From: Chryseobacterium sp. ISL-80
Lineage (GTDB): Bacteria > Bacillota > Bacilli > Bacillales > Cytobacillaceae
Assembly (NCBI GenBank): GCA_018613055.1
Contig: JAGGQZ010000013.1
Span: forward strand, 434,001-498,000
Direction of reading: 5' to 3'
DNA: 64,000 nucleotides
This document shows, piece by piece, positions 12,974-57,342 of this stretch. The position numbers and the translations under genes are program-made. How positions within the stretch are numbered: the first letter of the stretch is position 1; each line of letters opens with the position of its first letter. The notes beneath the pieces were generated by a model. The model was not told the origin of the DNA. It saw only the letters and a program-made list of their open reading frames with translations, and made no database searches.

Positions 12974-14410
12974 ATGCCTGCAATCAATGGAACACAGTTG
13001 AAAGAAAGAATCAGGGATTTGAAAAGCAATATCTGGTTTGATGGACAGAAAATCACTGGGGACATCATAGCACATCCTGCCTTTAAGGGAGTGATCGATA
13101 GCAAGGCCGGCTTGTATGATTTTCAGCTTGAAGAGGAAAATTTGCCGCTGATGACCTATAAATCGCCGTCAACCGGAAACCGGGTGGGCCGGTCTTTTCA
13201 TCCTACCGTCAAAAAAGAAGATCTGGAACTCAGGAGGCTTGCCGCCGGGGAGTGGGCAAAACTGACTGGCGGAATGATGGGGAGGACCCCTGATTACATG
13301 AATACAGCCTTAATGGCTCTTGGTGCTTCAGCAAATGTCTTTGAAGGAAAAAATAAATTAGGCAGGAATGTGACATATCTTTATGAAAAGGCAAGAGAGA
13401 ATGACCTTACCTTTTCTCATACGTATGTCACGCCGCAGGTGAACCGTTCGCTCGCGTATATTGAAGATAAGGAGCAGCCTATTTCTGCCCGGGTGGTCAA
13501 GGAGACAGCTGACGGGATATATATTAAGGGTGCCAGGTTATTGGCTACACAAGGCGGTATCACAGATGAACTGATGGTTTTGCCGGCCGGCGGTAAATTC
13601 ATCGAGGAAGATTATGTTTACGCCTTTTCGATTCCGAGCAACACAGAAAACTTAAAGTTTGTCTGCCGGGAATCGTTTGTCTATAATGAATCCCATTTTG
13701 ACCATCCGCTCGGGTCACGGTTTGAAGAAATGGATACGATCGTAATTTTCGACAACACCTTTGTGCCGTGGGAGAGGGTATTTTTATATAAAGATCTTAA
13801 TGCAGCGATGAATCTCTTCAACGAAACGAATTTTAATACCTTTCTGATTCATCAGACGTTATCAAGGCAGCTAACAAAATCGAGGCTGTTCCTGGGAACG
13901 GCCCAATTAATCACGGAAACGATCGGGATTGGCGAATATCAGCATGTAAAAGAAAAAATCAGTGAAATTATATGTGGTGTGGAAATGATGAAGGGGCTGC
14001 TTTTATCCTCGGAAATGCAGGCGAGGGAAAATAGTTCCGGCTTGATGGTACCGGATGCTAACCCTCTTACTGTTGCGAGTCTCATGTTTCCAAAGCTTTA
14101 TCCAAGATTCGTAGAAATCCTTCAGCTGCTGGGAGCGAGCGGCACCATCACCATTCCGACAAGCAATGATTTTAACTCGGATTTAAGAAGTGACCTCGAC
14201 CTGTATTTGCAGGGAGCAGATACCGATGCTAAGGGAAGAGTTCGATTATTCAGATTGGTGTGGGATATGTGCTCAAGTGCTTTTGCGGGACGGGAAACGA
14301 TTTACGAGCGATTCTTTTTCGGTGATCCGGCCCGGATTTCAGTGGGCCTGTATAATCAGTATGACAAGAAACCAGCTGTGGATTTGGTGAATGATTTATT
14401 GAGAAGTTGA
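12974..14410 (+). CDS. 4-hydroxyphenylacetate 3-hydroxylase (HpaB) family flavin monooxygenase
   Basis: The large component of a two-component FADH2-dependent aromatic hydroxylase, 478 residues, cytosolic. Family motifs include the start region GTQLKERI, AHPAFKG, GMMGRTPDYMN at about residue 100 and the acyl-CoA dehydrogenase-like core LIHQTLSRQLTKSRLFLGTAQLI. AGGAG precedes the ATG. No flavin reductase (HpaC) gene is adjacent, so reduced flavin must come from elsewhere. It resembles B. subtilis YoaI. The substrate could be another phenol. Confidence 0.85.
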   Translation: MPAINGTQLKERIRDLKSNIWFDGQKITGDIIAHPAFKGVIDSKAGLYDFQLEEENLPLMTYKSPSTGNRVGRSFHPTVKKEDLELRRLAAGEWAKLTGGMMGRTPDYMNTALMALGASANVFEGKNKLGRNVTYLYEKARENDLTFSHTYVTPQVNRSLAYIEDKEQPISARVVKETADGIYIKGARLLATQGGITDELMVLPAGGKFIEEDYVYAFSIPSNTENLKFVCRESFVYNESHFDHPLGSRFEEMDTIVIFDNTFVPWERVFLYKDLNAAMNLFNETNFNTFLIHQTLSRQLTKSRLFLGTAQLITETIGIGEYQHVKEKISEIICGVEMMKGLLLSSEMQARENSSGLMVPDANPLTVASLMFPKLYPRFVEILQLLGASGTITIPTSNDFNSDLRSDLDLYLQGADTDAKGRVRLFRLVWDMCSSAFAGRETIYERFFFGDPARISVGLYNQYDKKPAVDLVNDLLRS

Positions 14411-14574
14411 AAGGTAGAAAAATGATGGAAGCCTGGAAATCATCTCTGGGCTTTTTGCTGTCTTTTGGTCCAGAAAGCAATTAAGGTTCCCTACCTAGTT
14501 ATGCTGTTTTTCTCGATTCATCCTTCTGGCTACCCAGAACGGGAGATACAAAATCACGAAGGTAATCAGCGCAA

Positions 14575-15228
14575 TCACTTCCAGGGATAGGATATACCAT
14601 GGCCAAGGCCGAGATAATCAATGATCGAAGGATTGACCGGCTTTTCGGAGATATACATATAGTTGCCTTCAATCAGGAAATTGACGATGAAAATGATGAG
14701 CGTATAGACGTTCAACCAGAAAAATGCTTTCCAAATGGACTTTCCAGACGGCCGGTATCCTGCCACAAAAACCATGAACAGATTGGCTACGACGGTTCCC
14801 CCATGTGAAACGAAGAAATGGATATAGCGGTAATGGGGAAAGGTGTACAGGCTGATGTCGGGTGTGATCATCGCCTGCAATGCACTGCCGACGCCGACAA
14901 AATATGTGAATTCAAACAGGACATATCTCTTGTTTAATAGCAATATGGCAGAGAAGATGAGGGAGATGCTGCTTAAGTGAAGGGGCAATGAATACTGGTA
15001 GTTCCAGTGTCCACTCCACCAAAGCCAGATCTGCAGGCTTATTTCAGAGGCTATAAGCACAATGAATAATCCGATACGGACAGCAGTGTTGATCCCGGGT
15101 TTCCGTAAAGGCTTTCGGAATAAGAAAAGCAGAAGGATCATAAAAAAGAAAGCAGTGAGCGTCAAAAGGTGGACGCTTGAAAACAGCTGAAAAACATTTT
15201 CTGTTCCCGGTTCAAAAAATCCCTTCAT
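14575..15228 (-). CDS. YwaF/TIGR02206-type integral membrane protein
   Basis: A 217-residue protein with about six or seven membrane helices, and a start (EPGTENVFQLFSSVHLLTL) and middle section (WSGHWNYQYSLPLHLSSISLI) that fit the YwaF family of Bacillus membrane proteins. The HYRYIHFFVSHGG and YPW ending are conserved-looking. The function of the family is not known. It is convergent with the HpaB-like gene. The gap between them has only a weak hairpin near 14427-14455. Confidence 0.75.
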   Translation of the reverse strand: MKGFFEPGTENVFQLFSSVHLLTLTAFFFMILLLFLFRKPLRKPGINTAVRIGLFIVLIASEISLQIWLWWSGHWNYQYSLPLHLSSISLIFSAILLLNKRYVLFEFTYFVGVGSALQAMITPDISLYTFPHYRYIHFFVSHGGTVVANLFMVFVAGYRPSGKSIWKAFFWLNVYTLIIFIVNFLIEGNYMYISEKPVNPSIIDYLGLGHGISYPWK

Positions 15229-21477: not shown

Positions 21478-24400
21478 GTGAACTTCATTATTAAGCAGAA
21501 ATGGTTGGTCATTATTGCATGGATTCTGGTGGCTGCAGGGATGTTCATGGCTGCACCGAATATGGCGGAACTTGTCAGGGAAAAAGGGCAGATCACCGTG
21601 CCTGATGAATACTCCTCGACGCTGGCTGGCAAAATCATGGAGGAGGTCAGGGAGCAGGAAGGCGGAGGCGATGAAACACAGGTCGCACTCGTCTTCCACA
21701 GCGAGAAAAAGTTGACACAGGCAGAAATCAAGGAAGCGGAAAAAGCCATCCGCGAGCTTGAGAAAAATCGTGACAAAATTGGGATCACCAATATCCTGAC
21801 ACACTTCAATGAAGAAAGCCTGAAAGAACAGCTTGTCTCTGAAGATGGAAAGTCAATCCTGTCCTCGGTAACGGTCAGCTGGAACGACCGCGAACCGGCT
21901 GAAGTAAGGAAGCTGCTTTATGGCACAATAGAGGATGTTGACGTCGACCACTATTATACGAGCCAGTGGCTGATCAACGAGGATCTGATGACCAGTTCGG
22001 AAGAAGGATTGAAAAAGACTGAGGGAATCACCGTTGTTTTTATTCTTGTCGTGCTTCTCCTCGTCTTCAGGTCCGTTATCGCTCCGGTCATTCCATTACT
22101 GACAGTTGGTATGGCATACCTGGTTTCACAGTCGATTGTATCGATGCTCGTTGACCAATTCGATTTTCCGCTCTCAAACTATACGCAAATTTTCCTTGTT
22201 GCCGTATTGTTTGGAATTGGGACGGACTACTGTATTTTACTGCTCAGCCGTTTTAAGGAAGAGCTCACGCATCATGAAAGTGTCCCTGCGGCGATTGTCG
22301 CAACCTACAAAAATGCTGGGCGCACCGTATTTTTCAGTGGGATAGCAGTTATGATCGGCTTTGCCGCCATTGGCTTCTCACAATTCATTTTATATCAGTC
22401 CGCAGCCGCGGTAGCGATTGGTGTCGCCATGCTTTTGCTCGGATTATTCACTATAGTCCCGTTTTTCATGGCGTTATTGGGGCAAAAGATTTTCTGGCCG
22501 TCAAAACAGAGCGCAGAGCATGGTGAAAGCAAGCTATGGGGATCAGTCGGACGATTTTCACTGGCTCGCCCATTTCTGAGCCTGCTGATTGTCGCAGCAG
22601 TTTGCGTACCTTTCCTCGTGGCTTACGATGGAGAGTTAAGCTACAATTCATTGGATGAAATCAGCGGTGACGTAAACTCAATTAAGGCATTCAATGCAAT
22701 CGCTGGCAGCTTCGGGCCAGGCGAATCGATGCCGACCCAGATCATATTGAAAAATGACGAAAGAATGGACTCAGCCGAATACATTGAACTCGCTGAAAAA
22801 ATCAGCACCGAGCTGAAAAAGGTCGACATGGTCGACACAGTTCGTTCGGTCACAAGACCAACAGGAGAGCCAATTGAAGACTTCTTCGTCTCCAAACAGG
22901 CCGAAACACTCGGTTCGGGACTTGGAGAAGGAAAGGAAGGCCTCGATAAAATCAGTGAAGGCCTGCATGAAGCAGAAACAGAACTGTCAAAGTCAGCTCC
23001 GGAACTCGAAGGCGCCTCTGACGGTATCAATGAGTTGATTAATGGAACAACCGCCATTAAGTCAGGCCTTGGAGAAGTCCAGACTAACCTCTCGAAAATC
23101 GAGGACGGCATTCGCAAGGGTTCTGCGGGATCAGATGAGATACAGGCAGGGTTGGCGGAAGCAAAGGCGGGAGCCGAGGCGTTGCTGGCTGGGTATAAGG
23201 AGCTGCAGGGCAAATATGTAGAAATGCAGGGTGGCTTGGCAGAGCTTGAAGCGGGATATAAGCAAGCTGGTGATGGTATTGCCAAACTCTCTGGTGGAAT
23301 CTCTCAGACAAACGGCCAGCTCTTTGGCTATTTAGAAAATAGAGATGAAACGTTAAAAGAAGACCAAAACTATCAGAAAATAAAAGGTCAGCTCGCTTAC
23401 ATGCAGACGGAACTTGCAAAAGCTTCAGCAGGTCTGGATAAACTTAATGAGGTAATGCCGCAGCTAACCGGCGGCATGTCCCAAGCTAACGAAGCCTTTG
23501 CCGGGGCACTTGCCAAGCAGGCTGGATTTGGTCCCGGGCTCCAACAGCTCATCGACGGAATCGAGCAGCAGCAGGCAGGATTAAATCAGCTTGCTGACGG
23601 ACAGGGCAAAATCGTCGATAATTTCCCTAAGCTGACAAATGGTTTGACTGGAATCAATGCGGGCCAGCAGCAGCTTTTGGCTGGCTTTGGCGGATTGGGT
23701 ACCCAGTTGGATGAGCTGACAAACGGACTCAGCCAGAGCACGGATGGGCTGAATCAGGTTTCTGAAGGTCTTGGTTCCGCGCAGGATTACCTGAACGGCC
23801 TGGCCACCTCAGATTCCAACGGGTTTTACCTGCCTGAGGATGTCCTTGAAAGTGAAGACTTCGCACAGGTATTTGATGTCTATTTCTCAAAAGACCGAAA
23901 AGTCATGACGATGGATGTCATTTTTGAAGCAAATCCATATTCCAACAAAGCGATGGCACAGATTCCTGAACTTAAGGAAGCTGTTGAGCGTGCAACGAAG
24001 GGGACGAAGCTTGAAAATGCCGATGTAGCCGTTGGCGGGATCACGAGCACGAATGCTGACCTCGATACGATGTCTGGCCAGGATTATACTCGCACAGTGA
24101 TTTTAATGCTGCTTGGCATCGGCATCATCCTTGTATTCTTGTTCCGCTCCATCATCATGCCGATTTACATTATCGGATCATTGATTTTAACGTATTATAC
24201 GTCAATGGCGATCAATGAAGTCATCTATGTCGATATCCTCGGATACTCAGGCATCAGCTGGGCGGTACCGTTTTTCGCCTTTGTCATCCTGGTTGCCCTT
24301 GGTGTCGACTACAGTATCTTCCTGATGGACCGTTTCAACGAATATAAGGATCTGTCCATCTCAGAAGCGATGCTGCTTTCGATGAAAAAGATGGGAACGG

Positions 24401-24597
24401 TCATCATCTCAGCAGCTGTCATCCTTGGCGGAACCTTCGCCGCGATGATGCCTTCCGGAATGATGTCGTTACTGCAAATCGCATCAATCCTCCTTGCAGG
24501 ATTATTCTTGTACGCGTTCATCATGCTGCCGCTGTTCATCCCGGTTCTGGTGAAGAACTTTGGCGAAGCAAACTGGTGGCCTTTTAAAAGAGCATAA
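21478..24597 (+). CDS. MMPL/RND-family membrane exporter
   Basis: A 1039-residue protein with 12 membrane helices in two sets: one before about residue 20 plus five at 185-385, and one at about 400 plus five near 880-1030. Conserved membrane sequences GIGTDYCILLLSRFKEEL and ALGVDYSIFLMDRFNEY hold the Asp-Tyr proton relay. The second extracellular region (about 480-790) is a long helical stretch with repeats of the type GLxQLxDGxxQ, as in YdfJ/YhgE-like proteins. GTG start with AGGGTGG upstream. Coupled to MarR, so probably drug or lipid export. Confidence 0.9.
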   Translation: MNFIIKQKWLVIIAWILVAAGMFMAAPNMAELVREKGQITVPDEYSSTLAGKIMEEVREQEGGGDETQVALVFHSEKKLTQAEIKEAEKAIRELEKNRDKIGITNILTHFNEESLKEQLVSEDGKSILSSVTVSWNDREPAEVRKLLYGTIEDVDVDHYYTSQWLINEDLMTSSEEGLKKTEGITVVFILVVLLLVFRSVIAPVIPLLTVGMAYLVSQSIVSMLVDQFDFPLSNYTQIFLVAVLFGIGTDYCILLLSRFKEELTHHESVPAAIVATYKNAGRTVFFSGIAVMIGFAAIGFSQFILYQSAAAVAIGVAMLLLGLFTIVPFFMALLGQKIFWPSKQSAEHGESKLWGSVGRFSLARPFLSLLIVAAVCVPFLVAYDGELSYNSLDEISGDVNSIKAFNAIAGSFGPGESMPTQIILKNDERMDSAEYIELAEKISTELKKVDMVDTVRSVTRPTGEPIEDFFVSKQAETLGSGLGEGKEGLDKISEGLHEAETELSKSAPELEGASDGINELINGTTAIKSGLGEVQTNLSKIEDGIRKGSAGSDEIQAGLAEAKAGAEALLAGYKELQGKYVEMQGGLAELEAGYKQAGDGIAKLSGGISQTNGQLFGYLENRDETLKEDQNYQKIKGQLAYMQTELAKASAGLDKLNEVMPQLTGGMSQANEAFAGALAKQAGFGPGLQQLIDGIEQQQAGLNQLADGQGKIVDNFPKLTNGLTGINAGQQQLLAGFGGLGTQLDELTNGLSQSTDGLNQVSEGLGSAQDYLNGLATSDSNGFYLPEDVLESEDFAQVFDVYFSKDRKVMTMDVIFEANPYSNKAMAQIPELKEAVERATKGTKLENADVAVGGITSTNADLDTMSGQDYTRTVILMLLGIGIILVFLFRSIIMPIYIIGSLILTYYTSMAINEVIYVDILGYSGISWAVPFFAFVILVALGVDYSIFLMDRFNEYKDLSISEAMLLSMKKMGTVIISAAVILGGTFAAMMPSGMMSLLQIASILLAGLFLYAFIMLPLFIPVLVKNFGEANWWPFKRA

Positions 24598-24600
24598 ATG

Positions 24601-24631
24601 AAAAGAGGCAGCCAATAGGCTGCCTCTTTTT
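24601..24631. terminator. Bidirectional terminator
   Basis: AAAAGAGGCAGCC/GGCTGCCTCTTTTT perfect hairpin with three-base loop, serving the exporter gene and the convergent FrnE-like gene. Confidence 0.93.
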
Positions 24632-24635
24632 GCAA

Positions 24636-25268
24636 TTAACATCCATCCACTCCACAGGACATTCCTTCCTCTGGGTTATCCATCTCTGAAAGAATGATTT
24701 GCTCAAGGGCTTCTTTCGACCTCATTCCCGGAACGACTCTGTCTCCAACGATGAAAGTCGGAACAGCGGTGATGTCCACCTCATTATAAGCATGATTCAG
24801 AGCTTGTCGATGAGCTTCTTTATACTTACGGCTTTCGAGCGCGTGACGATATTCATCTTGATCGAGACCAACTTCACCAGCCAGCATTGTTAAAATCTCG
24901 ACGTCCCCAATATCAAGCCCTCTCTGGAAAAAAGCCTTCAGCATATGGTCGTTATACTCGTTTCCTTTCCCTTGCTCCTTCGCATACTGGTACCCCTCAA
25001 ATGCAAGGTGTGTGTATGGCTGGGGAGACACATCCGGAAGGACAATCTCCACTCCCATCCGCTCAGCCATCGGGTAAACAGATTGCTTCCATGTGCTTTG
25101 CAAGTAATGTTCCTCAGGCTTTAACGTCTTGTTCGGATAGGGCCGTAATTCAAAAGGCATCCATTCCAGCTCGACATCCTTTCCATCAATGGCTTCCTTC
25201 AGCGGAAACTCCGCCAAAAAACAGAACGGTCAAACATAGTCTGAATAAATCTTGATCTTCAGTGTCAT
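24636..25268 (-). CDS. FrnE-like DsbA-family oxidoreductase with in-frame TGA (predicted selenoprotein)
   Basis: Read through one TGA, this is a complete 210-residue FrnE/DsbA-type protein: ATG at 25268 behind GGAGG, then MTLKIKIYSDYV, TGA at 25232-25230, then PFCFLAEFPLKE and the rest without interruption. TGA replaces the first Cys of the CPFC active site, giving UPFC at residues 13-16. The other family parts are intact: WMPFELRPYP, FFQRGLDIGD, the cis-Pro loop VDITAVPTFIVGDR, and a Cys-rich end SCGVDGC. A SECIS-like hairpin follows the TGA. Ordinary annotation would miss the first 17 residues. The alternatives are a nonsense mutation or base error. Confidence 0.78.
25195..25232 (-). promoter_or_regulatory. 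Predicted bacterial SECIS element of the FrnE-like gene
   Basis: Eight bases after the TGA, a stem of 12 pairs (including G.U pairs) closes on a GUU loop at 25209-25207. The top is GCGGA-GUU-UCCGC, fully Watson-Crick. The TGA-to-loop distance is 20 nt. Bacterial SECIS elements need a stem-loop at 16-37 nt with a G in the first two loop bases, which is met. Confidence 0.65.
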
Positions 25269-25486
25269 AGCAGCCTCCTCCATATTCTTAACAGTATTAG
25301 GGTTCGTTTGGATTATACCTTTATACAAACTGGCTAAACTTTTAGGAGGATTTTCATTGCTGAAATCGAGATTGAACCATATAATGGAAATATCATAACT
25401 CAAAGGGGATAGAATATTGCGTACATATAGATTGGTTTCTTCATATAAAGAGGTGAATTTTTTATAATAGAATGGGAGACTAAAAA

Positions 25487-28116: not shown

Positions 28117-29007
28117 ATGAATTTTAAAAAGCTTGATGCGTTCATTATGGTTGTGGAAAAGAACAGTTTTTCAGAGGCCGCAGCTGCGCTTAAAAGTTCC
28201 CAGCCATCGGTTAGCCTGAAAATCAAAAGTCTTGAAGATGAACTTGGTTTCGAACTGCTCGACAGGGGGGCGGCTGGAATCAGGCCAACGTCTGCAGGAA
28301 TGCTGGTATACAGTGCTGCAAAGGACATTAAGAGCAGGTGGAAAACACTCGAGGATGAGCTCGGAGAATTTCACGGTACGTTGACAGGGACTCTTACCAT
28401 TGGTGCGAGCACGATACCGGGCACATATCTGCTTCCAGGCTGGATCAAAAAATTCAGAAGCCTGTTTCCGAAGGTGGATGTAAAGATCGATATTGGCGAT
28501 TCGAAGAAAGTGCTTGATCAATTGCAGAATCATCAGATTGACGCAGGCATCATTGGGATGAAAGTCGACTCACGCCTGGTGACGAGCAAGCCGATTGCCT
28601 CCGATTCATTGGTATTGGTCACACCAGTGGGGCATCCATTAACGCTTGCCGAAGCACCGGATTTTTCCCAAATTCAGCAATATGATTTCGTCCTCCGTGA
28701 AGAAGGGTCAGGAACACGGAAAATGATGGAGCATTACCTAGTGGAAAAAGGTCTGTCGCTTGATGATCTAGACGTTGCTGTCTCGATCGGAAGCACGGAA
28801 TCCGTGATCGCAGCCGTGGAAGCTGAACTAGGCATCAGCTTCGTTTCCAGGCTGGCGGCAATGCCTGCAGTGAAAGCAGGACGTATAGCCATTATTGACA
28901 GCTTTGCCCCGTACGAAAGGGAGTTTTACCTTGTGGCCCATTCGGATGCCGAAAATCGCCCGCTGATTAAGCAGTTCACCGACGCAGTCATGAATACCAG
29001 TTTGTGA
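28117..29007 (+). CDS. LysR-family transcriptional regulator
   Basis: A 296-residue regulator. The winged helix is at residues 1-60 (FKKLDAFIMVVEKNSFSEAA, SSQPSVSLKIKSLEDELG), and the effector domain from about 90 starts GTLTIGASTIPGTYLLPGWI. The linker and domain pattern (STIPGTYLLP, VKIDIGDSKKVLDQL, IDAGIIG) is like the CysL group and the LysR group linked with selenium metabolism. The second reading is attractive given the neighbouring TGA genes, but I cannot confirm it. It precedes moaD by 88 bp and may share its transcript. Confidence 0.85.
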   Translation: MNFKKLDAFIMVVEKNSFSEAAAALKSSQPSVSLKIKSLEDELGFELLDRGAAGIRPTSAGMLVYSAAKDIKSRWKTLEDELGEFHGTLTGTLTIGASTIPGTYLLPGWIKKFRSLFPKVDVKIDIGDSKKVLDQLQNHQIDAGIIGMKVDSRLVTSKPIASDSLVLVTPVGHPLTLAEAPDFSQIQQYDFVLREEGSGTRKMMEHYLVEKGLSLDDLDVAVSIGSTESVIAAVEAELGISFVSRLAAMPAVKAGRIAIIDSFAPYEREFYLVAHSDAENRPLIKQFTDAVMNTSL

Positions 29008-29984: not shown

Positions 29985-31826
29985 TTAAACTTCTTCTGTA
30001 GCTGGAGCTGTTTCCTCGCCGATAATGCCGAGTTCGCGAAGTTTTTCTTCGGTTACAACGCCATCTTTCCAGCCGCGGACATTATAATAGTCTTCCAGCA
30101 TGATATCCATGCGGGAAACAAGTCCTTCACTGTTGCCAGAAGCTCCTTCTTCAGTGAAGCGTTTTGGCAGGAAGTCATCCTCGCGCTTGTTGAAGCCAGC
30201 TAGGTTATTGTAGTAACGCTCTAGGTTGTAGATTCTTTCCCCTGCAAGCATGACGTCATCCGCTGTCATTGGGATGCCTGTCATGGTGCTGTATTGCTCA
30301 GCATAGTGCTCTGCATTTTCAGAGAAAGAAGAGAATTTACAGATATTCATAGAGTCAGAGAATGAAAGCAGGTTCTGGAATACATTCAGAAGCTCAGCTT
30401 TTCCTTCTGCTACTGTACGGTCTGTTGGCTCAGGAATGCCGGCTATTTCAGATGCGATTGTGTATCCGCGAAGGTGGCATGCACCACGGTTACTTGTCGC
30501 ATAGCCAAGGCCGATACCCTGGATTCCGCGTGGATCGTAAGCTGGGATGGACTGGCCTTTAACTGACATAGACAGTTCAGGAACGCCCCATGCAGCAGTC
30601 GCGCGTGCAGGACCTTCAGCAAGGATGCCGCCGAAGCCTTCACGGAATGCGATTTTGCGGGCGACTTCGATCATGCCGTCAGCATCGCCCCAGTCAAGCT
30701 TCTCGTCAACGATGCCTTTTTCATAGGCTTCCATTGTGACAGAGATGGCGTGGCCAAGCTCGATTGTATCCATTCCATATTCGTTACAGATGTCGATTAA
30801 GTATGCAATCGCCTCAGAGTCGCTCAATCCGCTGTTCGCACCAAGTGCCCATGCAGATTCAAACTCAAAGCTCTCAACGCGAGTCTTATATTTGCCTTCC
30901 TTGACCTCAACCTCAATCTTACAGCCGACTGGGCAAGCGTGGCATGTATTGTTCGCAACAAGCAGATGCTCGTTTACATACTCGCCAGAGTGCTTTTCAG
31001 CTTCATCCCAGTGTGTCAATTGAGAGTTGCGTGTTGGAAGCGCTCCCACTTCATTGATCAAGTTGGTAAGGACGTTTGTTCCGTATACGGATAGTCCGCC
31101 CTTGTTAGGAGCTGTCAAACCGCCTTCAAGAATCGCTTTAACCGCTTTCTTGTTAGCCTGGTTGTAATCATCTTTCTGAGCAGGTTCAGGCATGTTGCCT
31201 TTTTGTGCTGCTTTGATGACGATTGCCTTAAGCTTTTTGTAGCCTGCAACCGCACCAGTACCACCGCGTCCAGCCGCACGGTCATGCTCGTTCATGAAAC
31301 CGGCAAAACGCACGCCGTTCTCGCCAGCCTGGCCGATTGTCATGACGCTTAGGTTTTCTTCGCCATGAGCGTCTTTCATAGCCTGTACAGTCGCGCGCGT
31401 GCCCAATCCCCACAATTGAGAAGCGTCACGGATTTCTGCTTTACCGTCCTCGATATAGAGGTAAACAGGCTTGTCGCTCTTGCCTTTGAAAATCACGTTG
31501 TCGATGCCGGACCACTTCAGGCGAGCGGCAGTCCATCCACCCATATGAGAGTCGGTAACTGTGCCAGTCAGCGGCGACTTCGTTACAACAGCAAGACGTC
31601 CGCTCATTGAAGAACGGGAACCTGTTACCGGTCCAGTCATGATACATAGGATGTTTTCTTCTGACAGAGGCTCAACTTCTGGTCCGTTGTCCAGTACATA
31701 CTTGACTCCAAGTCCGCGGCCGCCGATATACTTCCTGACATCATCTTCATTGATGCCCCGGTAATCGACCGTGCCATTTGTCAGGTCAACTACGACTTCT
31801 TTGTTTTTAAATCCCCCAAGATTCAT
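29985..31826 (-). CDS. Aldehyde ferredoxin oxidoreductase family protein (tungsten-type)
   Basis: A 613-residue cytosolic enzyme that should oxidise aldehydes to acids with ferredoxin, using a tungsten bis-pterin and one 4Fe-4S cluster. N-terminal domain: VVVDLTNGTVDYRGI, YIGGRGLGVKYV, GPVTGSRSSMSGRLAVVTKSP (pterin contacts). The cluster motif is CHACPVGC at about residue 295, and the fourth Cys is in NICKFSSF near 505. Other AOR parts are ESAWALGANSG, DTIELGHAIS and YDPRGIQGIGLGYATSNRGACHLRGY. AGAGGTGG precedes the ATG. Full length. The pterin genes and tupABC nearby support tungsten. Confidence 0.93.
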   Translation of the reverse strand: MNLGGFKNKEVVVDLTNGTVDYRGINEDDVRKYIGGRGLGVKYVLDNGPEVEPLSEENILCIMTGPVTGSRSSMSGRLAVVTKSPLTGTVTDSHMGGWTAARLKWSGIDNVIFKGKSDKPVYLYIEDGKAEIRDASQLWGLGTRATVQAMKDAHGEENLSVMTIGQAGENGVRFAGFMNEHDRAAGRGGTGAVAGYKKLKAIVIKAAQKGNMPEPAQKDDYNQANKKAVKAILEGGLTAPNKGGLSVYGTNVLTNLINEVGALPTRNSQLTHWDEAEKHSGEYVNEHLLVANNTCHACPVGCKIEVEVKEGKYKTRVESFEFESAWALGANSGLSDSEAIAYLIDICNEYGMDTIELGHAISVTMEAYEKGIVDEKLDWGDADGMIEVARKIAFREGFGGILAEGPARATAAWGVPELSMSVKGQSIPAYDPRGIQGIGLGYATSNRGACHLRGYTIASEIAGIPEPTDRTVAEGKAELLNVFQNLLSFSDSMNICKFSSFSENAEHYAEQYSTMTGIPMTADDVMLAGERIYNLERYYNNLAGFNKREDDFLPKRFTEEGASGNSEGLVSRMDIMLEDYYNVRGWKDGVVTEEKLRELGIIGEETAPATEEV

Positions 31827-31899
31827 CTTAACTAATCCACCTCTTTCGCTTTTTATAGTAAAAAACTCCTAAGAGGAGACATTCCCTCTTAATATTTAG

Positions 31900-31919
31900 T
31901 ATAGTGAAAATTTTCTATA
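31900..31919. promoter_or_regulatory. Candidate operator palindrome between AOR and ThiF/MoeB genes
   Basis: TATAGTGAAAATTTTCTATA is a palindrome with one inserted base, centred on GAAAATTTTC at 31906-31915, in the 140-bp divergent region. A second inverted repeat, AAGAGG/CCTCTT, is at 31871-31887 in the AOR leader. TATAAT at about 31941 may be the -10 of the ThiF gene. The binding protein is unknown; the LysR or Tup regulators are candidates. Confidence 0.35.
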
Positions 31920-31970
31920 AAAAAAAGCTTTATTTAAAGATATAATCTAAATAGAAGTGAGGGGATGTCC

Positions 31971-32999
31971 ATGACAGAAATGAAGCGTTATTCAAGACAA
32001 ATTTTATTCCAGCCAATCGGAACTGAAGGACAGAAAAAGCTGCTGAACAGTTCTGCAGTCATTGTCGGCATGGGGGCGCTCGGCACAGTGATCTCGAATC
32101 ATCTGGTCCGTTCGGGCGTGGGGCATGTCCGCTTCATTGACCGTGACCTTGTCGAGCTGTCCAATCTCCAGCGCCAGACTCTCTATGATGAAGAAGATAC
32201 ACGCGAAAACCTGCCAAAGGTGATAGCTGCTGAAAAAAAACTGAAAAAAATCAATTCCGAGGTGAAATTGGAGCCAATCATTGCCGACCTGACGCTGGAT
32301 AATGCGGAGGACCTGCTTGCTGGTTTTGATGTGATCGTCGATGGGACCGATAATTTCATGGCCCGATATCTTATAAATGATGTTGCTGTAAAACATGGCA
32401 TTCCGTGGGTGTATGGCGGGGCTGTCAGTTCGCGGGGCATGTTCGCTGTCATCAAACCGGGGGAGACACCGTGCTATCGATGCCTGTTTCCTTCCGTCCC
32501 TGCAGGACTTGGAGATACTTGCGACAGCATCGGTGTGCTTTCACCGATCACAGACATCATCGGTTCGTTCGAAGCGGTCGAAGCGCTGAAGCTGCTTGTC
32601 AGTGCGGAGTCGAATCCCAATCTTGAACAGATGGATATCTGGTATAACTCGTTTTTGCAAATGGACGTCAGCCAGGGGCGCAATCCGGAATGCCCGGCAT
32701 GTGTCCATCATCAATATGAATTTCTCGATCGCTCATCAGAGCAGCAGATTAACTATGCATCGCTTTGCGGGCGCAACACAATCCAGATCAATCCGCGACA
32801 GAAGGCAAAACTGGACCTTGAAAAGCTGGCAGGACGTTTGAAAAATAATGGCGAAGTAAAAGGCAACCCGTTCCTGTTACGTTTCATGCCTGATGACGAA
32901 ATCACCATGGTCATCTTCCAGGATGGAAGGGTGCTTGTCCACGGCACGAATGATTTGGTAAAAGCGAAAACCTATTATGCCAGATACATGGGGTCCTAA
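31971..32999 (+). CDS. ThiF/MoeB/HesA-family E1-like adenylyltransferase
   Basis: A 342-residue ATP-dependent enzyme that adenylates the Gly-Gly end of a MoaD/ThiS carrier. Nucleotide-binding VIVGMGALGTVISNHLVRSG near residue 28, then DRDLVELSNLQRQTLY (Arg finger), VDGTDNFMARYLIND, zinc Cys pairs CYRC and CPAC, and a Cys in GDTCDS. About 80 further residues follow the E1 core (QKAKLDLEKLAGRLKNN onward). ATG 31971 is six bases after GAGGGG; an ATG at 31965 is too close. Divergent from AOR, upstream of the FAD oxidase. Confidence 0.9.
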   Translation: MTEMKRYSRQILFQPIGTEGQKKLLNSSAVIVGMGALGTVISNHLVRSGVGHVRFIDRDLVELSNLQRQTLYDEEDTRENLPKVIAAEKKLKKINSEVKLEPIIADLTLDNAEDLLAGFDVIVDGTDNFMARYLINDVAVKHGIPWVYGGAVSSRGMFAVIKPGETPCYRCLFPSVPAGLGDTCDSIGVLSPITDIIGSFEAVEALKLLVSAESNPNLEQMDIWYNSFLQMDVSQGRNPECPACVHHQYEFLDRSSEQQINYASLCGRNTIQINPRQKAKLDLEKLAGRLKNNGEVKGNPFLLRFMPDDEITMVIFQDGRVLVHGTNDLVKAKTYYARYMGS

Positions 33000-39447: not shown

Positions 39448-40179
39448 CTAATCGAGAAGGCTTTTCCAATCATTTATAAAAGTGGAAGCAGATGCGTTGG
39501 GGGATGACAACACTTCCTCTGTGGGACCAGTCTGTTTCAGCTCGCCATCCATGAGAATTGCAAGCGTTCCAGCAAGGAATTTCAGTTCCATGAGATCGTG
39601 ACTGACAAAAACTGTTGTCGTTTTCGTCTGCCCTATGATCGACTTAATATCCTTCAATAGCTGCACCTTCGTGGGGAAGTCAAGTGCAGAGAAGGGTTCA
39701 TCGAGGAACAGGACTTCCGGCTCGAGCACCATTGACCGGGCAAGGTTGACACGCTGAGCCTCGCCGCCGGACAAGTATGCTGCGTGTTTTTTGGCAAGAT
39801 GGCTAATCTGGAATTTTTCGAGCCAGTAGCCAACCTTTTGTTTTACTTCCTGGCGGGGAAGATTCCTTAGCTTCAAGCCAATCGCAACATTCTGAAAAAC
39901 GGTTGTATCAAGAAGCAGCGGCTGCTGCATCGCGACAGCGAATTTTCTTCGCATCTTAAGTGACAGATCATCAGAGATATCCTGATCTTTGAAAAAAATC
40001 GAGCCCTGAGCTGGTTTTTCCAGCAAGGATAAAGCCTTGATAAAAGTACTTTTTCCAGCACCATTCGGACCCATGATCCCAAGGATTTCCCCGTCTTGTA
40101 TCTCAAAATGGGGGATGGAAAGCAGGTTTTTCTTTCCTGCTCTCACTTCTAAATTTTTTACAGTAATCAGTGGGGTCAT
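39448..40179 (-). CDS. tupC: Tungstate ABC transporter ATP-binding protein
   Basis: A 243-residue ATPase that powers tungstate import. Walker A is GPNGAGKSTFIKALS near residue 36, the Q-loop is MQQPLLLD, the signature is YLSGGEAQRVNLARSM, Walker B is EVLFLDEPFSALD, and the switch His is in VFVSHDLMEL. Its ATG overlaps the tupB stop by four bases. The family assignment as Tup rather than Mod rests on tupA and tupB below. Confidence 0.9.
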   Translation of the reverse strand: MTPLITVKNLEVRAGKKNLLSIPHFEIQDGEILGIMGPNGAGKSTFIKALSLLEKPAQGSIFFKDQDISDDLSLKMRRKFAVAMQQPLLLDTTVFQNVAIGLKLRNLPRQEVKQKVGYWLEKFQISHLAKKHAAYLSGGEAQRVNLARSMVLEPEVLFLDEPFSALDFPTKVQLLKDIKSIIGQTKTTTVFVSHDLMELKFLAGTLAILMDGELKQTGPTEEVLSSPNASASTFINDWKSLLD

Positions 40180-40874
40180 AGGCTCCGCTTCCTTTGCTGT
40201 AAATAAGTCAGGCTAAATGTGATGATGAACGCCAATGTCATTAAGATGAATGAAAGTGCAAGGGCGATATCGAAATTACCTTTCGATACTTCCATGACGA
40301 TCGAAGTGGTAAGGATCCGCGTTTCGCCGCTGAGATTGCCGCCGACCATCATCGCGGCGCCGACCTCGGCAATGACTCGTCCGAAGCCTGCGATGATGGC
40401 TGCAAGAATCGCAAGCTTTACTTCTTTCATCAAAATCCAATATAGCTGGAACTTCGTCGCTCCAAGAGCTTTGACCTGAAGGATCAGTTTAGGGTTGATC
40501 TGCTGGAATGCCGTGCTCGTCAGCGCAGTGACAATCGGCAGTGAAACGAGAATCTGTGCCATGATTATTGCCGTGGGCGTATACAGCCAGGCCAGGTCGC
40601 CAAGCGGACCTGAGCGCCACAGGAAAAGAGTGATCCATAGGCCGGCAACGACAGGAGGGAGGCCCATGCCGATATTGATGATGGCAAGGAGCAGCTTCCT
40701 TCCCGGAAACCGGGCAAGCCCAAGGAACATACCTGCCGGAATACCGATCATCGTGCTGATCAGCACAGCTGTAATCGAAACCCTCAGCGTCAGCAGGGTA
40801 ATCTCGAGGATTTCCCTGTCCCCTGACAGGATCATTTCTATCGCTTTTTTCAATCCTTCTAGTAAAAGTTCCAT
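40176..40874 (-). CDS. tupB: Tungstate ABC transporter permease
   Basis: A 232-residue permease with five or six helices, typical TupB length. LGLARFPGRKLLLAIINIGMGLPPVVAGLW at about 50-80 (core NIGMGLPPVVAGLWITLFLW) and the ATPase-contact loop KALGATKFQLYWILMKEVKLAI are family marks, with AGFGRVIAEVGAAMMVGGNL after. The ribosome site is weak. ATG at 40874 is the likely start; a TTG two codons earlier is possible. Confidence 0.9.
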   Translation of the reverse strand: MELLLEGLKKAIEMILSGDREILEITLLTLRVSITAVLISTMIGIPAGMFLGLARFPGRKLLLAIINIGMGLPPVVAGLWITLFLWRSGPLGDLAWLYTPTAIIMAQILVSLPIVTALTSTAFQQINPKLILQVKALGATKFQLYWILMKEVKLAILAAIIAGFGRVIAEVGAAMMVGGNLSGETRILTTSIVMEVSKGNFDIALALSFILMTLAFIITFSLTYLQQRKRSL

Positions 40875-40914
40875 GCGCAATCAGACTTTCTTTCAAATTT
40901 TGTCTAGTAAAAAT

Positions 40915-41784
40915 CTATTCAAATAGGAAAAATAGGGGCTCCCCGTATTCATCGGTGCCAAATTCCTTGATCATCTTCTTTGTATCTTCTGAAGTCATAT
41001 AATCGACAAATGCTTTCGCACCCTCTGCATTTACTTTATCATGTTTTTCGTCGTTCACTTGCATAACGTGATAAATATTCAGCAGGCTTTCGTCACCTTC
41101 AACCAAAATTTCCGTGTCAGGCATGTTCTTTTTCTGAGCCAGGTATGTAGCACGGTCTGTCAAAGTATAAGCCTGTTTCTCTGAAGCAATCTGCAGCGTT
41201 GCGCCCATCCCTTGTCCAGCTTCTATGTATGCATCACCAAGGCTTTTCGGGTCAAGTGAGGATTTCTTCCACAGCTCAAGCTCTTTTTTATGAGTGCCGG
41301 AATCATCACCGCGAGATACGAATGCTGCTTTTGAATCGATGATTTTTTTCAAAGTTTCAGGAACTGTTAGGCCTTTTACTTTTGCTGGGTCTTCAGCTGG
41401 CCCAACAATGATGAAGTCATTGTACATGACCTTCTGGCGGTTGATGGCATCGCCGCTTTTTACGATCTCTTCTTCCGCTGCAGGTGCGTGCACAAGAAGG
41501 ACATCCGCTTCACCTCGTGTTCCCATTTCTAGTGCCTGACCGGTACCAACGGCAATGATCTTCAGATTATAATTGTTTTTTTCTTCAAAATCAGGCTTCA
41601 GGACATCAAGCAGTCCGCTATCCTGGGTGCTGGTAGTTGTCGCGAGGATCAAATCCGTTTTTTCTGTTTTTTCCGTTTTGGTCTCTGGCTGATTTTCAGC
41701 TTCCTTTGTCGATGAGTCAGAACAACCTGTTACAAAAGCGAACATAAGTACAAGCAATAGTGAAATTACATGTTTGAATTTCAT
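40915..41784 (-). CDS. tupA: Tungstate-binding lipoprotein
   Basis: A 289-residue solute-binding protein anchored by a lipobox (FAFVTGC, Cys 21). The TupA ligand motif TTTSTQDSGLLDVLKP lies at about residues 50-65, with the anion-binding Thr/Ser cluster. VGTGQALEMGTRGEADVLLVHAP and FVSRGDDSGTHKKELELW are further TupA hallmarks that separate it from ModA. GGAGG precedes the ATG. It lies three bases after the regulator gene. Confidence 0.93.
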   Translation of the reverse strand: MKFKHVISLLLVLMFAFVTGCSDSSTKEAENQPETKTEKTEKTDLILATTTSTQDSGLLDVLKPDFEEKNNYNLKIIAVGTGQALEMGTRGEADVLLVHAPAAEEEIVKSGDAINRQKVMYNDFIIVGPAEDPAKVKGLTVPETLKKIIDSKAAFVSRGDDSGTHKKELELWKKSSLDPKSLGDAYIEAGQGMGATLQIASEKQAYTLTDRATYLAQKKNMPDTEILVEGDESLLNIYHVMQVNDEKHDKVNAEGAKAFVDYMTSEDTKKMIKEFGTDEYGEPLFFLFE

Positions 41785-41787
41785 TCC

Positions 41788-42708
41788 TTATTCCTCCGTT
41801 GAGTGATTTGCATAAATGATGGTTCCGAATTCTTCAGCATCATAGCCATCAAGGTCTGCGATGCTATCTTTGAAATTGGTGAGCTGAATCAGGTCAATCA
41901 AGTGCTGCAGGGCTTCTCTGTTTCCAGGAGTCCAGCGGAACACTAAGTCAAACTGTTCCTTTGTAAGCGGGATAAAATCGAGACCAAGCTGGCTTGCTGC
42001 GCACCTGATTCCTAAGGCTGCATCTGCTGTACCCCTGCTGATATAGGCTGCCGCTCCAAGGTGGGTCCACTCTTCGTTGTCGTACCCCTTCACATTTGTC
42101 GGCTCAATTTTTTCATTGGCGAGGAAGGAATCGAGCAGGAAACGGGTGCCGGCTCCTTTTTGGCGATTGACAATCGTGACGTCAGTCCTTGCCAGATCCT
42201 TGACTCCGGTAATGTCTTTTGGATTGCCCTTCGCGACAATCATGCCCTGTTCCCTTGAAGCAAGCCTCATGACGGTAATCGGCTCATGGACAAACAGCTG
42301 GCGGATAAAGGGAAGATTGTATTGCTGCGATGTCGGGTCGAGCAGATGGACTGCCGCGATATCCGCACTGCCGCGATACAGCATCATCAAACCTTCGAGA
42401 CTGCCGATGTAGGAGGGAGTGATCGAGAGTCCCGTTCCTTCAGAGGCTATGTACTTTACAAGCTGTTCGACCAGGAAATCATGGCTGCCAGCCAGCTGCA
42501 AAGAATGCAGGGGATTCCCCTTTGATTCCTGAGCCCTGGCAGGGGTTGCGGACATGTTAGCTTTGTATCTTTCAAACTCGCTTTCTTCAATGCGCATTTT
42601 ATTGCCCACTTTGAAAGCAGCAAGGTCTCCGCGCTTGATCATTTCATAAACGGTATGTTTGGATATTTTCAGCATGGAGGCGATTTCGTCCGGAGTATAA
42701 ATTTGCAA
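41788..42708 (-). CDS. Helix-turn-helix regulator with periplasmic-binding-like domain (tup operon)
   Basis: A 306-residue protein: an excisionase/MerR-like helix-turn-helix (YTPDEIASMLKISKHTVYEM, KRGDLAAFKVGNKMRI) at residues 3-50, then a PBP-like domain (SLQLAGSHDFLVEQL, GSADIAAVHLLDP, NRQKGAGTRFLLDSFL, DAALGIRCAASQLGLDFIPL) related to oxyanion binders. It probably senses tungstate or molybdate and controls its own operon. TTG start with AGGAGG at good spacing. First gene of the operon with tupA, tupB and tupC. Confidence 0.88.
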   Translation of the reverse strand: MQIYTPDEIASMLKISKHTVYEMIKRGDLAAFKVGNKMRIEESEFERYKANMSATPARAQESKGNPLHSLQLAGSHDFLVEQLVKYIASEGTGLSITPSYIGSLEGLMMLYRGSADIAAVHLLDPTSQQYNLPFIRQLFVHEPITVMRLASREQGMIVAKGNPKDITGVKDLARTDVTIVNRQKGAGTRFLLDSFLANEKIEPTNVKGYDNEEWTHLGAAAYISRGTADAALGIRCAASQLGLDFIPLTKEQFDLVFRWTPGNREALQHLIDLIQLTNFKDSIADLDGYDAEEFGTIIYANHSTEE

Positions 42709-46772: not shown

Positions 46773-47859
46773 TTTTATTTTTCACCTTCTTCGCAATCCA
46801 TGTGGCGATAAATAAAAAGGGGATATAAACATAGGTCACGGCGAAGCCGATTTTAGCAGTCCAGTCATTCAGGAGATTGATTTTAGCACGAGTATCAAAG
46901 AACATGATCGCAATTAAAGAGATCAAGGCAAGGCCAATGACGCCTTTTCTTTGCCGCAGCTTGAAAGCCCTTTTTAAAAGCATGCTGCCACCCCAAAGAG
47001 CAATGCAGACATTCGGGAGGATGATCAGATTCCAGTTGGCAATCCCGATATATTCGAACCTTTCGACGAAGGGCATCGTAACAATCTTCCACATGTCAAG
47101 GGTAGCCCAAATGGATTTTGCGAGCTGTGCTTCTGAAAAAAAACTGAATGTAATGATTGCCAGGATGGTATAGATTATGGTTGTCAAAAAGACGCCTAGA
47201 TGTGCCCACTTTTGGGATTTTGGTGCATCTTTAATGAATGGATAGAAAAAAAGTGGGATCTCGAATCCGATATAGGTCAAGGACATATTATAGGCGCTGG
47301 TTGCAAGTTCTTTAAAGGAATGATCAAAAATGGGCAGAAGATTTCTGAATTCAGCATATTTAAGTGCGAAACCGAATGTCAACAGCAGATAACTCGGCAG
47401 GACGATGCAGAAAAAGGCAACACCGGTTACTGTGCGAAACCCTCCAAATACGATATAGATAGAAAGAATCAAAAAAACAAGGCTATACCAGAATGTGCTG
47501 ATTTCAGGAAACATCCAGACCTGGATGACTTCAATAAAGGTCCGTAATACAGCTGTTGAAAAAATAAGCAGGTAGATAATGAAAACGGCGCTTATCATCT
47601 TGCCGATTTTGTTGCCAAACACATAGACATTTGCCGCGACAATATCTCCTTCAACGGTCCCGCAAATTTTATAAATCATCCAGATGATGATATGGATGCT
47701 AAAACCGGCAGCAAGAACGGATATCCAGGCATCATAGCCTGCAGCCTTTGCGATGATCCGCTGATAACCCAGGACCCCGATACCGATTTGCATAGACATG
47801 ATTAAATAGAGAACGAGAAAGGGTGAAACTTGCAATCTTTCGGGTACTGGCTGCTGCAT
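46762..47859 (-). CDS. Germinant receptor B subunit, amino acid permease-like
   Basis: A 365-residue protein with ten membrane helices of the GerAB/GerBB family, the subunit that binds the germinant. LVLYLIMSMQIGIGVLGYQR is the family start, followed by DAWISVLAAGFSIHIIIWMI, NMSLTYIGFEIPLFFYPFI and ANWNLIILPNVCIALWG. Nineteen bases separate it from the A subunit. The germinant cannot be read from the sequence. Confidence 0.93.
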   Translation of the reverse strand: MQQPVPERLQVSPFLVLYLIMSMQIGIGVLGYQRIIAKAAGYDAWISVLAAGFSIHIIIWMIYKICGTVEGDIVAANVYVFGNKIGKMISAVFIIYLLIFSTAVLRTFIEVIQVWMFPEISTFWYSLVFLILSIYIVFGGFRTVTGVAFFCIVLPSYLLLTFGFALKYAEFRNLLPIFDHSFKELATSAYNMSLTYIGFEIPLFFYPFIKDAPKSQKWAHLGVFLTTIIYTILAIITFSFFSEAQLAKSIWATLDMWKIVTMPFVERFEYIGIANWNLIILPNVCIALWGGSMLLKRAFKLRQRKGVIGLALISLIAIMFFDTRAKINLLNDWTAKIGFAVTYVYIPFLFIATWIAKKVKNKNEN

Positions 47860-47878
47860 GACTCATAACCTCCAATGC

Positions 47879-49423
47879 TCATTCATCAATGTCCTTCTTT
47901 TCCTTTGCCTTTTTCTCACTGAAGCGGGAAGGATTTTCTGTCCTCAAATATTGTGGCCGATTGTATTGCATCGTAAACGGAAGACGGATGATCGCATCCT
48001 TGAAATCAGTGACTCTGGGAGGGTAAAGAGGCTCCAAAAATGGCCGTCCCAGTGATGTCAGTCTAAGCAAATGGGTCAGAAGGAACGAAAAGGCAACGAC
48101 GATTCCGAGCAAACCCCAGAGCTCTGCGAACAAAAGGAATGGGAAACGAAGCAACCTGATCGTGTTGCCCATTCGATAAACAGGTGTTGTAAAGGATGCC
48201 AGTGCGGCCAACGCAACAATAATCAGCAGGACGTTACTGGTCAGGCCGGCTTCAACGGAAGCTGTCCCGATAACGATACCGCCCACGATACCGATCGTCT
48301 GGCCGACCTTGGTTGGCAGCCGGGCTCCAGCCTCTCGCAGGAGTTCAATTGTTAGCTCAAGGAACAATGCTTCCAGGATAGGAGGAAGCGGAATTTCTCT
48401 TCTAGATGTAATCAATGTGCTTAGCAGGTCCTTCGGGATCAATTCATAGTGATACGACAATGTTGCCACATAAATCGGCGTAATCAGAATCGAGAAGGCA
48501 ACAGCGAACAAACGAACCAAACGGAAAAAAGAAGACAGTAAATAATTCAGGAAATAGTCTTCGAATGACCCGAAAAATTCGACCAGGGTCGTAGGGCCGA
48601 TCAGCGCATGTGGTGAACCGTCAACAAGGATGGCGACTTTCCCCTCTGCGAGAACTGCCGCAATCCGGTCCGGCCTTTCCGTATCGAGCAATTGCGGGAA
48701 AGGAGAATTCTGGTTATCAGAAATTAGTTGCACAATATAAGAACTATCCGTAATCTCATCGAACTCGATATCCTTAATTCGCTGGATTACCGTATCGACA
48801 TTATCCTTGTTCGTAATCCCGTCTATGTATAGGATGGCAACTCCGCTTTTTGACAGTGAACCAACCGTGTAGTTTTCGACGATCAGCTCTTTAACAGGAA
48901 CCCTTTTCCGAATCATATTAAGATTCTGGTCAATTGACTCAACAAAAGACTCTTTAGGACCGATAACACTGAACTCGACTTCTGGCATCCCGACTGCTCG
49001 GACAATTTCCTTCTGTGCCGCGATGAACGCAAAATATTTCTCTTCATTTTCAAGGGTCAGCAAAACATACCCGTTAAAGAGCTTTGCTTCAATATCCTCG
49101 TTCTTTTCCGATACCTGGACATCAGCGACGGGAACCAGCTTTTTGACATCTGCAATGGTTGAAAAGTCACCTTCAAGCAGGCCGGGGAGAGCATTATTCT
49201 GCAGGAGGCTTTCATCCACAAGCGTGGAAATGAAGGAAAAGCAGAATTTTTTTCCTGATTTCTGGTTCACGTAAAAAGTTTTTTTATAATCGTGGGACTT
49301 GAAAAGTGTATTTTCCCATTCATGGTCATTTAAATATTGGTCAGGCTTTTGGCCTTCTGTATCCTGTCTGGCCGCTTCTTTTTCGATGTCTTCCAGCAGT
49401 TTTTTCTTGAATAGCTTTTTCAT
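47879..49423 (-). CDS. Germinant receptor A subunit, GerA family
   Basis: A 514-residue protein of the spore inner membrane. The N-terminal soluble region holds two domains (to about residue 270) with LLQNNALPGLLEGDF, ELIVENYTVGSLSKSGVAIL and DGSPHALIGPTTLVEFFGS. Four or five membrane helices follow with ISIT-like RREIPLPPILEALFLELTIELLREAGARLP (core PLPPILEALFLELTIELLRE) and KVGQTIGIVGGIVIG. ATG 49423 has GGAGAG upstream; the frame extends five codons to a TTG. First gene of the ABC receptor operon, expected to be forespore-expressed. Confidence 0.94.
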   Translation of the reverse strand: MKKLFKKKLLEDIEKEAARQDTEGQKPDQYLNDHEWENTLFKSHDYKKTFYVNQKSGKKFCFSFISTLVDESLLQNNALPGLLEGDFSTIADVKKLVPVADVQVSEKNEDIEAKLFNGYVLLTLENEEKYFAFIAAQKEIVRAVGMPEVEFSVIGPKESFVESIDQNLNMIRKRVPVKELIVENYTVGSLSKSGVAILYIDGITNKDNVDTVIQRIKDIEFDEITDSSYIVQLISDNQNSPFPQLLDTERPDRIAAVLAEGKVAILVDGSPHALIGPTTLVEFFGSFEDYFLNYLLSSFFRLVRLFAVAFSILITPIYVATLSYHYELIPKDLLSTLITSRREIPLPPILEALFLELTIELLREAGARLPTKVGQTIGIVGGIVIGTASVEAGLTSNVLLIIVALAALASFTTPVYRMGNTIRLLRFPFLLFAELWGLLGIVVAFSFLLTHLLRLTSLGRPFLEPLYPPRVTDFKDAIIRLPFTMQYNRPQYLRTENPSRFSEKKAKEKKDIDE

Positions 49424-49556
49424 CGCACTCTCCGCCAATCTTGGTTTACGTTTATCATTTCCGAAATTGGGAGGAATATGAAAAGTCTTTAGGTAATTTT
49501 GTTAAAGATGGTTCCTATTATCAACCTGGTGCAAAATTGGAAACTGGATAAAAAGA

Positions 49557-57101: not shown

Positions 57102-57295
57102 GATCATACCTCCGTGTTTTTAAGTGATAAAAGTATCGCCTTTATAGAATGCCCAAGTGTTTAAGAATAAGCATATGGATTAAAGATTCAAAAAATTTTA
57201 TTTTTTCCACACCTTATTATTGCGGAAATTTTTTAAATATTTTATAGTAGTAATTAACAGAGCTCATTTATATGCATATTTTTTTTGGTGCAAAA

Positions 57296-57314
57296 ATGAA
57301 TGAGTATTCATTCA
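57296..57314 (+). promoter_or_regulatory. FadR operator of the fad operon
   Basis: ATGAATGAGTATTCATTCA contains a full TGAATGA-N4-TCATTCA palindrome, the Bacillus FadR consensus. FadR, released by long-chain acyl-CoA, represses fadN-fadA-fadE. It lies 29 bases before the fadN start. Confidence 0.88.
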
Positions 57315-57342
57315 AAAAGAGTCAAAGGGGGAGACAAATTTG

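Follow-up and report, generated by a model that had tools for sequence, protein, structure and literature searches.

A predicted selenocysteine-containing FrnE-like protein of the DsbA family in a bacterium related to Mesobacillus

DsbA-like selenoproteins (COG2761/pfam01323; we take COG2761 to be the FrnE group) have the DsbA fold, selenocysteine (Sec) in place of the first Cys of the CxxC motif, a SECIS element directly after the UGA codon, and widespread Cys homologues. They share all of this with the gene analyzed here, as it is predicted to be decoded. A 2005 study of the Sargasso Sea (PMC1088965) had filed nine UxxC members under COG2761, so this kind of selenoprotein was already known. 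DsbA 1 and 2 selenoproteins were described in the GOS data in 2008 (PMC2398784), DsbA-like selenoproteins were recorded in 41 organisms in 2016 (PMC5029168), and they are covered in reviews (PMC9312934, PMC13188914). The members found named come from marine metagenome reads and from anaerobes such as Anaeromyxobacter, Desulfovibrio, and Desulfotomaculum (PMC1794560). For Bacillales, the latter paper, of 2006, gives three selenoproteins of three families, and a DsbA-like member may already be among these three.

Compared with these known proteins, the present one differs in that it belongs to a Bacillaceae clade with a fixed GCGGAG-NNN-CCG hairpin core and with loss of a C-terminal tail in part of the Sec forms, none of which was found described in the available parts of those sources. 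A literature search with most subscription journals outside its scope yielded no specific description of a selenoprotein FrnE or of the Bacillaceae UPFC form, and the word FrnE is absent from PMC9312934, PMC2398784, PMC13188914, PMC12013277, and PMC1088965.

By sequence, the protein belongs to the same subfamily as D. radiodurans FrnE (drFrnE; DR_0659; PDB 5cnw, 5co3, and others), with which it shares a CP(W/F)C-type active site and a C-terminal CX4C motif. However, drFrnE uses Cys, is 260 residues long compared to 210 in the protein described here, and is related to it at modest identity. It was predicted to be cytoplasmic (PMC8945050). A cytoplasmic location is also predicted for our protein, since no leader precedes its first strand at residue 3.

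The gene lies in the window (the whole stretch of 64,000 nucleotides that was analyzed), which is part of a host assembly of 4.75 Mb in 35 contigs. Among the nearest named loci listed were those of "Cytobacillus oceanisediminis" DE0166 (93% protein identity), Bacillus sp. ISL-41 (86%), Mesobacillus subterraneus (86%), and Mesobacillus selenatarsenatis SF-1 (85%). Judged by these relatives' sequences, the host genome is placed near Mesobacillus. The gene and its surroundings contain the following features.

24636..25268, minus strand: FrnE/DsbA-family gene predicted to contain Sec, 210 codons and a TAA stop (from the Pfam match, the FrnE match, and the model)
25274..25281, minus strand: ribosome binding site GGAGGAGG (from the sequence)
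25230..25232, minus strand: in-frame TGA at residue 13, on the first Cys of CPFC, giving UPFC (from the sequence and the relatives)
25221..25223, minus strand: codon of Cys16, the second active-site Cys, invariant in the 42-row alignment A1
24639..24656, minus strand: CGVDGC at the C-terminus (C205 and C210), the FrnE CX4C pair (from the sequence)
24601..24630, no strand: terminator-like inverted repeat GAGGCAGCC-tatt-GGCTGCCTC flanked by A/T runs (read by eye)

The frame consists of an ATG (25268-25266), 12 sense codons, the TGA, 197 sense codons, and TAA. This confirmed what an earlier note, made from the sequence, had described as an ATG with its upstream ribosome binding site, followed by 12 codons, TGA, and 197 codons. 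When the TGA is read as Sec, the predicted translation is MTLKIKIYSDYV-U-PFC.... The terminator-like repeat sits between the FrnE gene and the convergent gene at 21478-24597.

The Pfam model DSBA (PF01323) matched residues 5-191 of the protein (5.5e-30), and drFrnE (5cnw) matched it with 1.3e-17, its first active-site Cys being aligned to the TGA. Both alignments bore out the claim that the TGA stands exactly at the first Cys of CPFC. The drFrnE structure 5cnw was also the closest solved relative by sequence, as the best among three distinct sequences with E ≤0.001. An AlphaFold2 model built from 42 sequences (pLDDT 93.1; pTM 0.86) has a strand at residues 3-9 and a helix at residues 14-27. 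In this model, residue 13 immediately precedes the first long helix, which is where the active site of a thioredoxin fold should be. The final ten residues, which include the CX4C motif, were modeled with a pLDDT below 50. In alignment A1 (42 rows), Y8, D10, P14, and C16 are invariant and the sequence on either side of residue 13 is conserved; V169-P170, the putative cis-Pro loop, is also invariant there.

No NCBIfam model recognized the protein above its cut-off. The Rcas_1661 family of (seleno)lipoproteins (NF041057) is likewise thioredoxin-like and can hold Sec, but with 25.7 bits compared to a cut-off of 190, our protein is not a member. The table-11 ORF listing opens at TTG 25217, corresponding to residue 18, and gives 193 amino acids without the active site; the loss of the active site through such a start had been foreseen correctly. 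Because the ORF listing drops the active site and no NCBIfam model recognizes the protein above cut-off, Sec-containing FrnE would be misannotated in many Bacillaceae. The existence of this ORF is also what could be expected if the working form were a truncated protein starting at TTG18, and the sequence is compatible with unspecific read-through of the UGA (e.g., as Trp). However, neither the first strand nor the active site would be present in a truncated protein. The 42-row alignment nevertheless shows conservation across residues 1-17, and the ribosome binding site precedes the ATG. The distribution of selA, described below, bears on both possibilities.

At residue 13, the 174 aligned rows (redundant copies included; relatives were taken as the best 80 of 177, so that frequencies are not a census) held TGA in 65 cases and Cys in 109, and never TAA or TAG. 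The alignment proposed in the earlier note, with Cys or TGA as the expected alternatives at this residue, thus gave only these two. TGA13 is shared by 53 distinct genes, down to approximately 47% protein identity; here, distinct genes are distinct 75-nt contexts (53 Sec and 84 Cys, with L115 and L180 included). In a search of the window's family, FrnE was found at 38 places in 37 of 193 genomes. A TGA was present at 22 of the 38 places, in all 22 at residue 13. Over the 591 nt past the TGA, dN/dS was 0.041 to 0.068 in comparison with seven congeners (dS 0.48 to 2.2), and we conclude from these values that purifying selection acts on the protein sequence encoded past the TGA.

These data argue against the view that a nonsense mutation or a sequencing error put the TGA into an ordinary, decaying Cys gene, since dN/dS is about 0.05 past the TGA in the window's genus, and TGA13 is spread over the 53 distinct genes with TAA and TAG never found in its place. 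What that view can point to is a small number of relatives. Random stops in the same gene of close relatives, which the earlier note would have held against Sec, do occur elsewhere in a few copies, although none affects the active-site codon. The second FrnE copy of Litchfieldia salsa (L115/L157) has TGA13 and the hairpin, with another TGA in place of the Trp36 of its relatives; it is probably decaying, the alternative being that this other codon is recoded as well. In genome G029, the FrnE copy L180 has a TAA at residue 75. Furthermore, in genome G563 (99% complete), L164 keeps TGA13 and an intact conserved hairpin, and this genome showed no selA and a best tRNA-Sec score of 42.7 bits compared to a cut-off of 47. 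Either there is an assembly gap in G563 or a recent loss of the sel genes left a dead gene. The codons of the hairpin, to which we return below, also bear on a decay of the gene.

At the level of the phylum, FrnE was rare: a sample contained it in 4 of 398 genomes (E ≤1e-30). In two of these loci, L201 and L202 (same phylum, other class; 36-37% identity), the codon at this site is likewise TGA; selA is present in both genomes, and the C-terminal Cys pair is absent. No convincing hairpin was found after the TGA in L201 and L202 (z −0.44 and −0.29); perhaps they use another SECIS class. A plasmid search gave 25 records, the best of which (71% identity), the one examined at residue 13, has the Cys form.

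The machinery for Sec insertion is encoded in the host genome. A check for selA, selB, selC (tRNA-Sec), and selD, as suggested in the earlier note, detected all four: the tRNA-Sec scored 60.6 bits (gathering score 47) and was assigned the anticodon TCA by ARAGORN, and selA (562.9 bits), selB (372.5 bits), and selD (399.5 bits) were all above cut-off. In a sample of the order, 90 of 397 genomes hold FrnE (E ≤1e-40). Among them, selA was present in 33 of the 34 genomes with TGA13 compared to 16 of the 56 genomes without it (same order; Fisher 2e-11, a value that, like the Fisher value given below, ignores shared descent). The 56 genomes include G456, in which the match covers residues 10-103 only and contains two TAA codons; for those order-sample genomes whose sequence was not retrieved, a lack of TGA was deduced from the stop count of the table. 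In the window's own family the association is uninformative, since selA is present in 172 of 193 genomes there. In the order, however, the TGA tracks selA, and this is not what a truncated product or unspecific read-through would lead one to expect. Taken together, these two possibilities are very improbable, and the decoding of the UGA as Sec is the reading we prefer.

Any Sec-UGA makes expression selenium-dependent. The UGA could thus act mainly as a selenium sensor, the gene reporting selenium status with no need for Sec chemistry. In line with such a role, a gene for a regulator associated with selenium metabolism is located 3 kb from the FrnE gene.

28117..29007, plus strand: LysR regulator of the selenium-metabolism-associated kind (NF040786, 304.8 bits; cut-off 250)

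However, this gene is on the opposite strand and does not form an operon with the FrnE gene. Moreover, Sec is located at the catalytic Cys, as chemistry would predict, and the FrnE product shows no sign of a regulatory role. We give the sensor function a slim chance and retain a catalytic Sec as the favored explanation.

Several other observations were made in the window and in the genome. An aldehyde ferredoxin oxidoreductase-related gene (198.9 bits, below its cut-off of 868) adjoins a MoeB/ThiF-like gene (window positions 29985-32999), and a set of ABC importer genes, read by eye, together with a gene for a helix-turn-helix/molybdopterin-biosynthesis-like protein is found some kb away (39448-42708). 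Together, these two regions are a possible tungsten/molybdenum cofactor region. Three long window frames that are open if TGA is read as U (12974-14590, 47699-49438, and 57220-59724; inspected out of 180 listed) were rejected as selenoprotein genes, their TGA codons being located in an upstream leader or past the apparent normal C-terminus. Elsewhere in the genome, selD itself (L018, 1501-2427) has an in-frame TGA near the N-terminus and is a candidate selenoprotein gene. Past this TGA there is a hairpin of 7 pairs, whose loop, also GUU, lies at a distance of 33 nt. The SelD candidate therefore shares an N-terminal in-frame TGA and a GUU-loop hairpin with FrnE, but its loop is 33 nt instead of 20 nt from the TGA, and the stem sequence differs.

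In the FrnE gene, the sequence after the TGA can form the following structure.

25195..25221, minus strand: SECIS-like hairpin of 12 pairs with the loop GUU at 25207-25209 (fold −12.3 kcal/mol)
25201-25215, minus strand: conserved hairpin core NGCGGA-GNN-TCCGCT (from the comparison of Sec with Cys genes)

The hairpin begins 8 nt and its loop 20 nt past the TGA, and the 12 pairs, the GUU loop, and both distances were found as originally noted. Published rules for bacterial SECIS elements specify a loop of 3-9 nt, a stem of 4-16 bp, a G in the first two loop positions, a spacing of 16-37 nt, and a minimum free energy of at most −7.5 (PMC13188914). In our own implementation of these rules, the FrnE hairpin (GUU, 12 bp, 20 nt, −12.3 kcal/mol) lies within them. 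However, 18 of 200 dinucleotide shuffles of a 40-nt stretch and 31 of 200 shuffles of a 48-nt stretch folded equally well, and 445 of the 2,711 TGA triplets in the window also agree with the rules, as do all 53 Sec genes and 31 of the 84 Cys genes. Taken alone, the hairpin is weak evidence, within what is expected by chance, and the rules are unspecific. In view of the shuffles and the background count, its energy was dropped as an argument, although Sec genes fold somewhat better on average than Cys genes (mean −13.7 kcal/mol in 26 distinct Sec contexts compared to −10.5 kcal/mol in 69 distinct Cys contexts). Accordingly, the earlier note went too far, on the hairpin alone, in calling it unlikely that a SECIS-like fold would survive a random nonsense mutation. 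An Rfam scan of positions 24600-25400 gave no match with E up to 1.

The evidence beyond chance comes from the relatives. The codons GCG-GAG-NNN-CCG are present in all 53 distinct Sec genes, but only in 2 of the 84 distinct Cys genes. The amino acids Ala19-Glu20-x-Pro22, in comparison, are encoded in 53 of 53 Sec and in 64 of 84 Cys contexts, and among the Cys genes that keep them, the codons GCG-GAG-NNN-CCG were found in 2 of 64 (Fisher 2e-31). In eight window genes, the local shares of these codons are 21% for GCG, 31% for GAG, and 38% for CCG. Furthermore, the first base of the loop is G in each of the 53 distinct Sec genes. The lower stem is not conserved among the relatives, and the core varies so little in Sec genes that a covariation test of its base pairs is without power. 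The decisive point for the hairpin is the synonymous codon choice, which is fixed in Sec genes and not in Cys genes. Such fixation also speaks against a nonsense mutation or a sequencing error in a decaying Cys gene, which we consider extremely improbable.

The sel genes, the pattern at residue 13, and the hairpin codons fixed in Sec genes all support the decoding of Sec that had been proposed for this gene. Its product is very probably a selenoprotein belonging to the FrnE subfamily within the DsbA family, with residue 13 predicted to be Sec. SelB, bound to the GUU/GGU-type loop, would deliver Sec-tRNA(Sec) at UGA13, yielding the full-length protein, whose active site would be Sec13-Cys16; if selenium is absent, translation would end after 12 residues. 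Homology to drFrnE at modest identity suggests a catalytic role, probably as a cytoplasmic disulfide reductase, and by analogy the enzyme could act as a reductase/isomerase in oxidative or metal stress. In such an enzyme, the selenolate would attack substrate disulfides and Cys16 would resolve the intermediate, and regeneration of the oxidized active site may be aided by the C205/C210 tail from another molecule.

The distribution of Sec and Cys in the family was analyzed using trees of 137 distinct proteins (53 Sec and 84 Cys). This is a different set from the 53 and 84 genes: L115, L157, and L180 were excluded from it as too short, although they were kept among the 174 rows. A quick tree that included the tail columns required at least 9 Sec/Cys changes, 5 of them forced by supported branches. 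A careful tree without the tail gave 11 changes (9-11 in bootstrap trees; a single change in 0 of 200), with 3 forced by supported branches and a bootstrap that was not fully settled. Both trees are rooted at the midpoint and in part unresolved, and gains and losses of Sec are indistinguishable in them. By this sequence analysis, Sec and Cys have been interchanged repeatedly in the FrnE family. The two Cys genes with the hairpin core, L106 and L107 (Paenibacillus), were grouped beside a Sec clade together with L119 (support 81), a Cys copy without the core. L192, also a Cys copy, was placed with Sec copies (support 100) and is one base off the core. L106, L107, and L192 likely carry SECIS remnants after Sec-to-Cys reversion, as shown for FdhA and a HesB-like protein (PMC1794560).

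Sec and Cys proteins also differ at the C-terminus. Of the 53 Sec proteins, 26 have a C-x(3-7)-C tail and 27 do not; of the 84 Cys proteins, 80 have it and 4 lack it. With the stricter spacing of x4-5, 28 Sec proteins are tailless, and 27 of these contain just one Cys in the sequence starting at position 13, so that Sec13 and Cys16 would often be the sole redox residues there. In L052 and a few others, the tail may have been lost by a frameshift near the end. A test for correlated evolution of Sec and tail gave a likelihood ratio of 17.0 (p 0.002) on the tree with the tail columns and of 15.6 (p 0.004) on the second tree, from which they were left out. On both trees, the fitted loss of the tail was faster in Sec lineages. 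An independent-pairs test found 5 pairs on supported branches, a number that gives it no power. The correlation between Sec and the tail is possibly new.

In drFrnE, the CX4C motif extends to the active site of a second molecule and was proposed to aid the regeneration of that site. Mutation or deletion of the tail cysteines lowers the reduction of DTNB with thioredoxin reductase and NADPH and does not lower the reduction of insulin with DTT, and tailless FrnE proteins are also present in D. maricopensis and Streptomyces roseofulvus (all according to PMC8945050). We put forward, as a hypothesis and not as a result, that with Sec, FrnE can do without its C-terminal CX4C relay, and we give it somewhat less than an even chance. 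If it is true, the selenenylsulfide would be turned over directly by the general reductant of the cell, while the dithiol form would usually need a resolving relay in trans. The four tailless Cys proteins, the tailless FrnE proteins elsewhere, and the tail that the Sec protein of the window itself keeps (CGVDGC, residues 205-210) count against it.

These bacteria are mostly known for Sec use of the formate dehydrogenase type. The predicted FrnE selenoprotein would add a thiol-disulfide selenoenzyme to their Sec repertoire. Furthermore, the many close pairs of Sec and Cys forms, of which some share one genome and others are unlike in the CX4C tail, provide a natural experiment that may serve the long-standing question of why evolution keeps or gives up selenocysteine.
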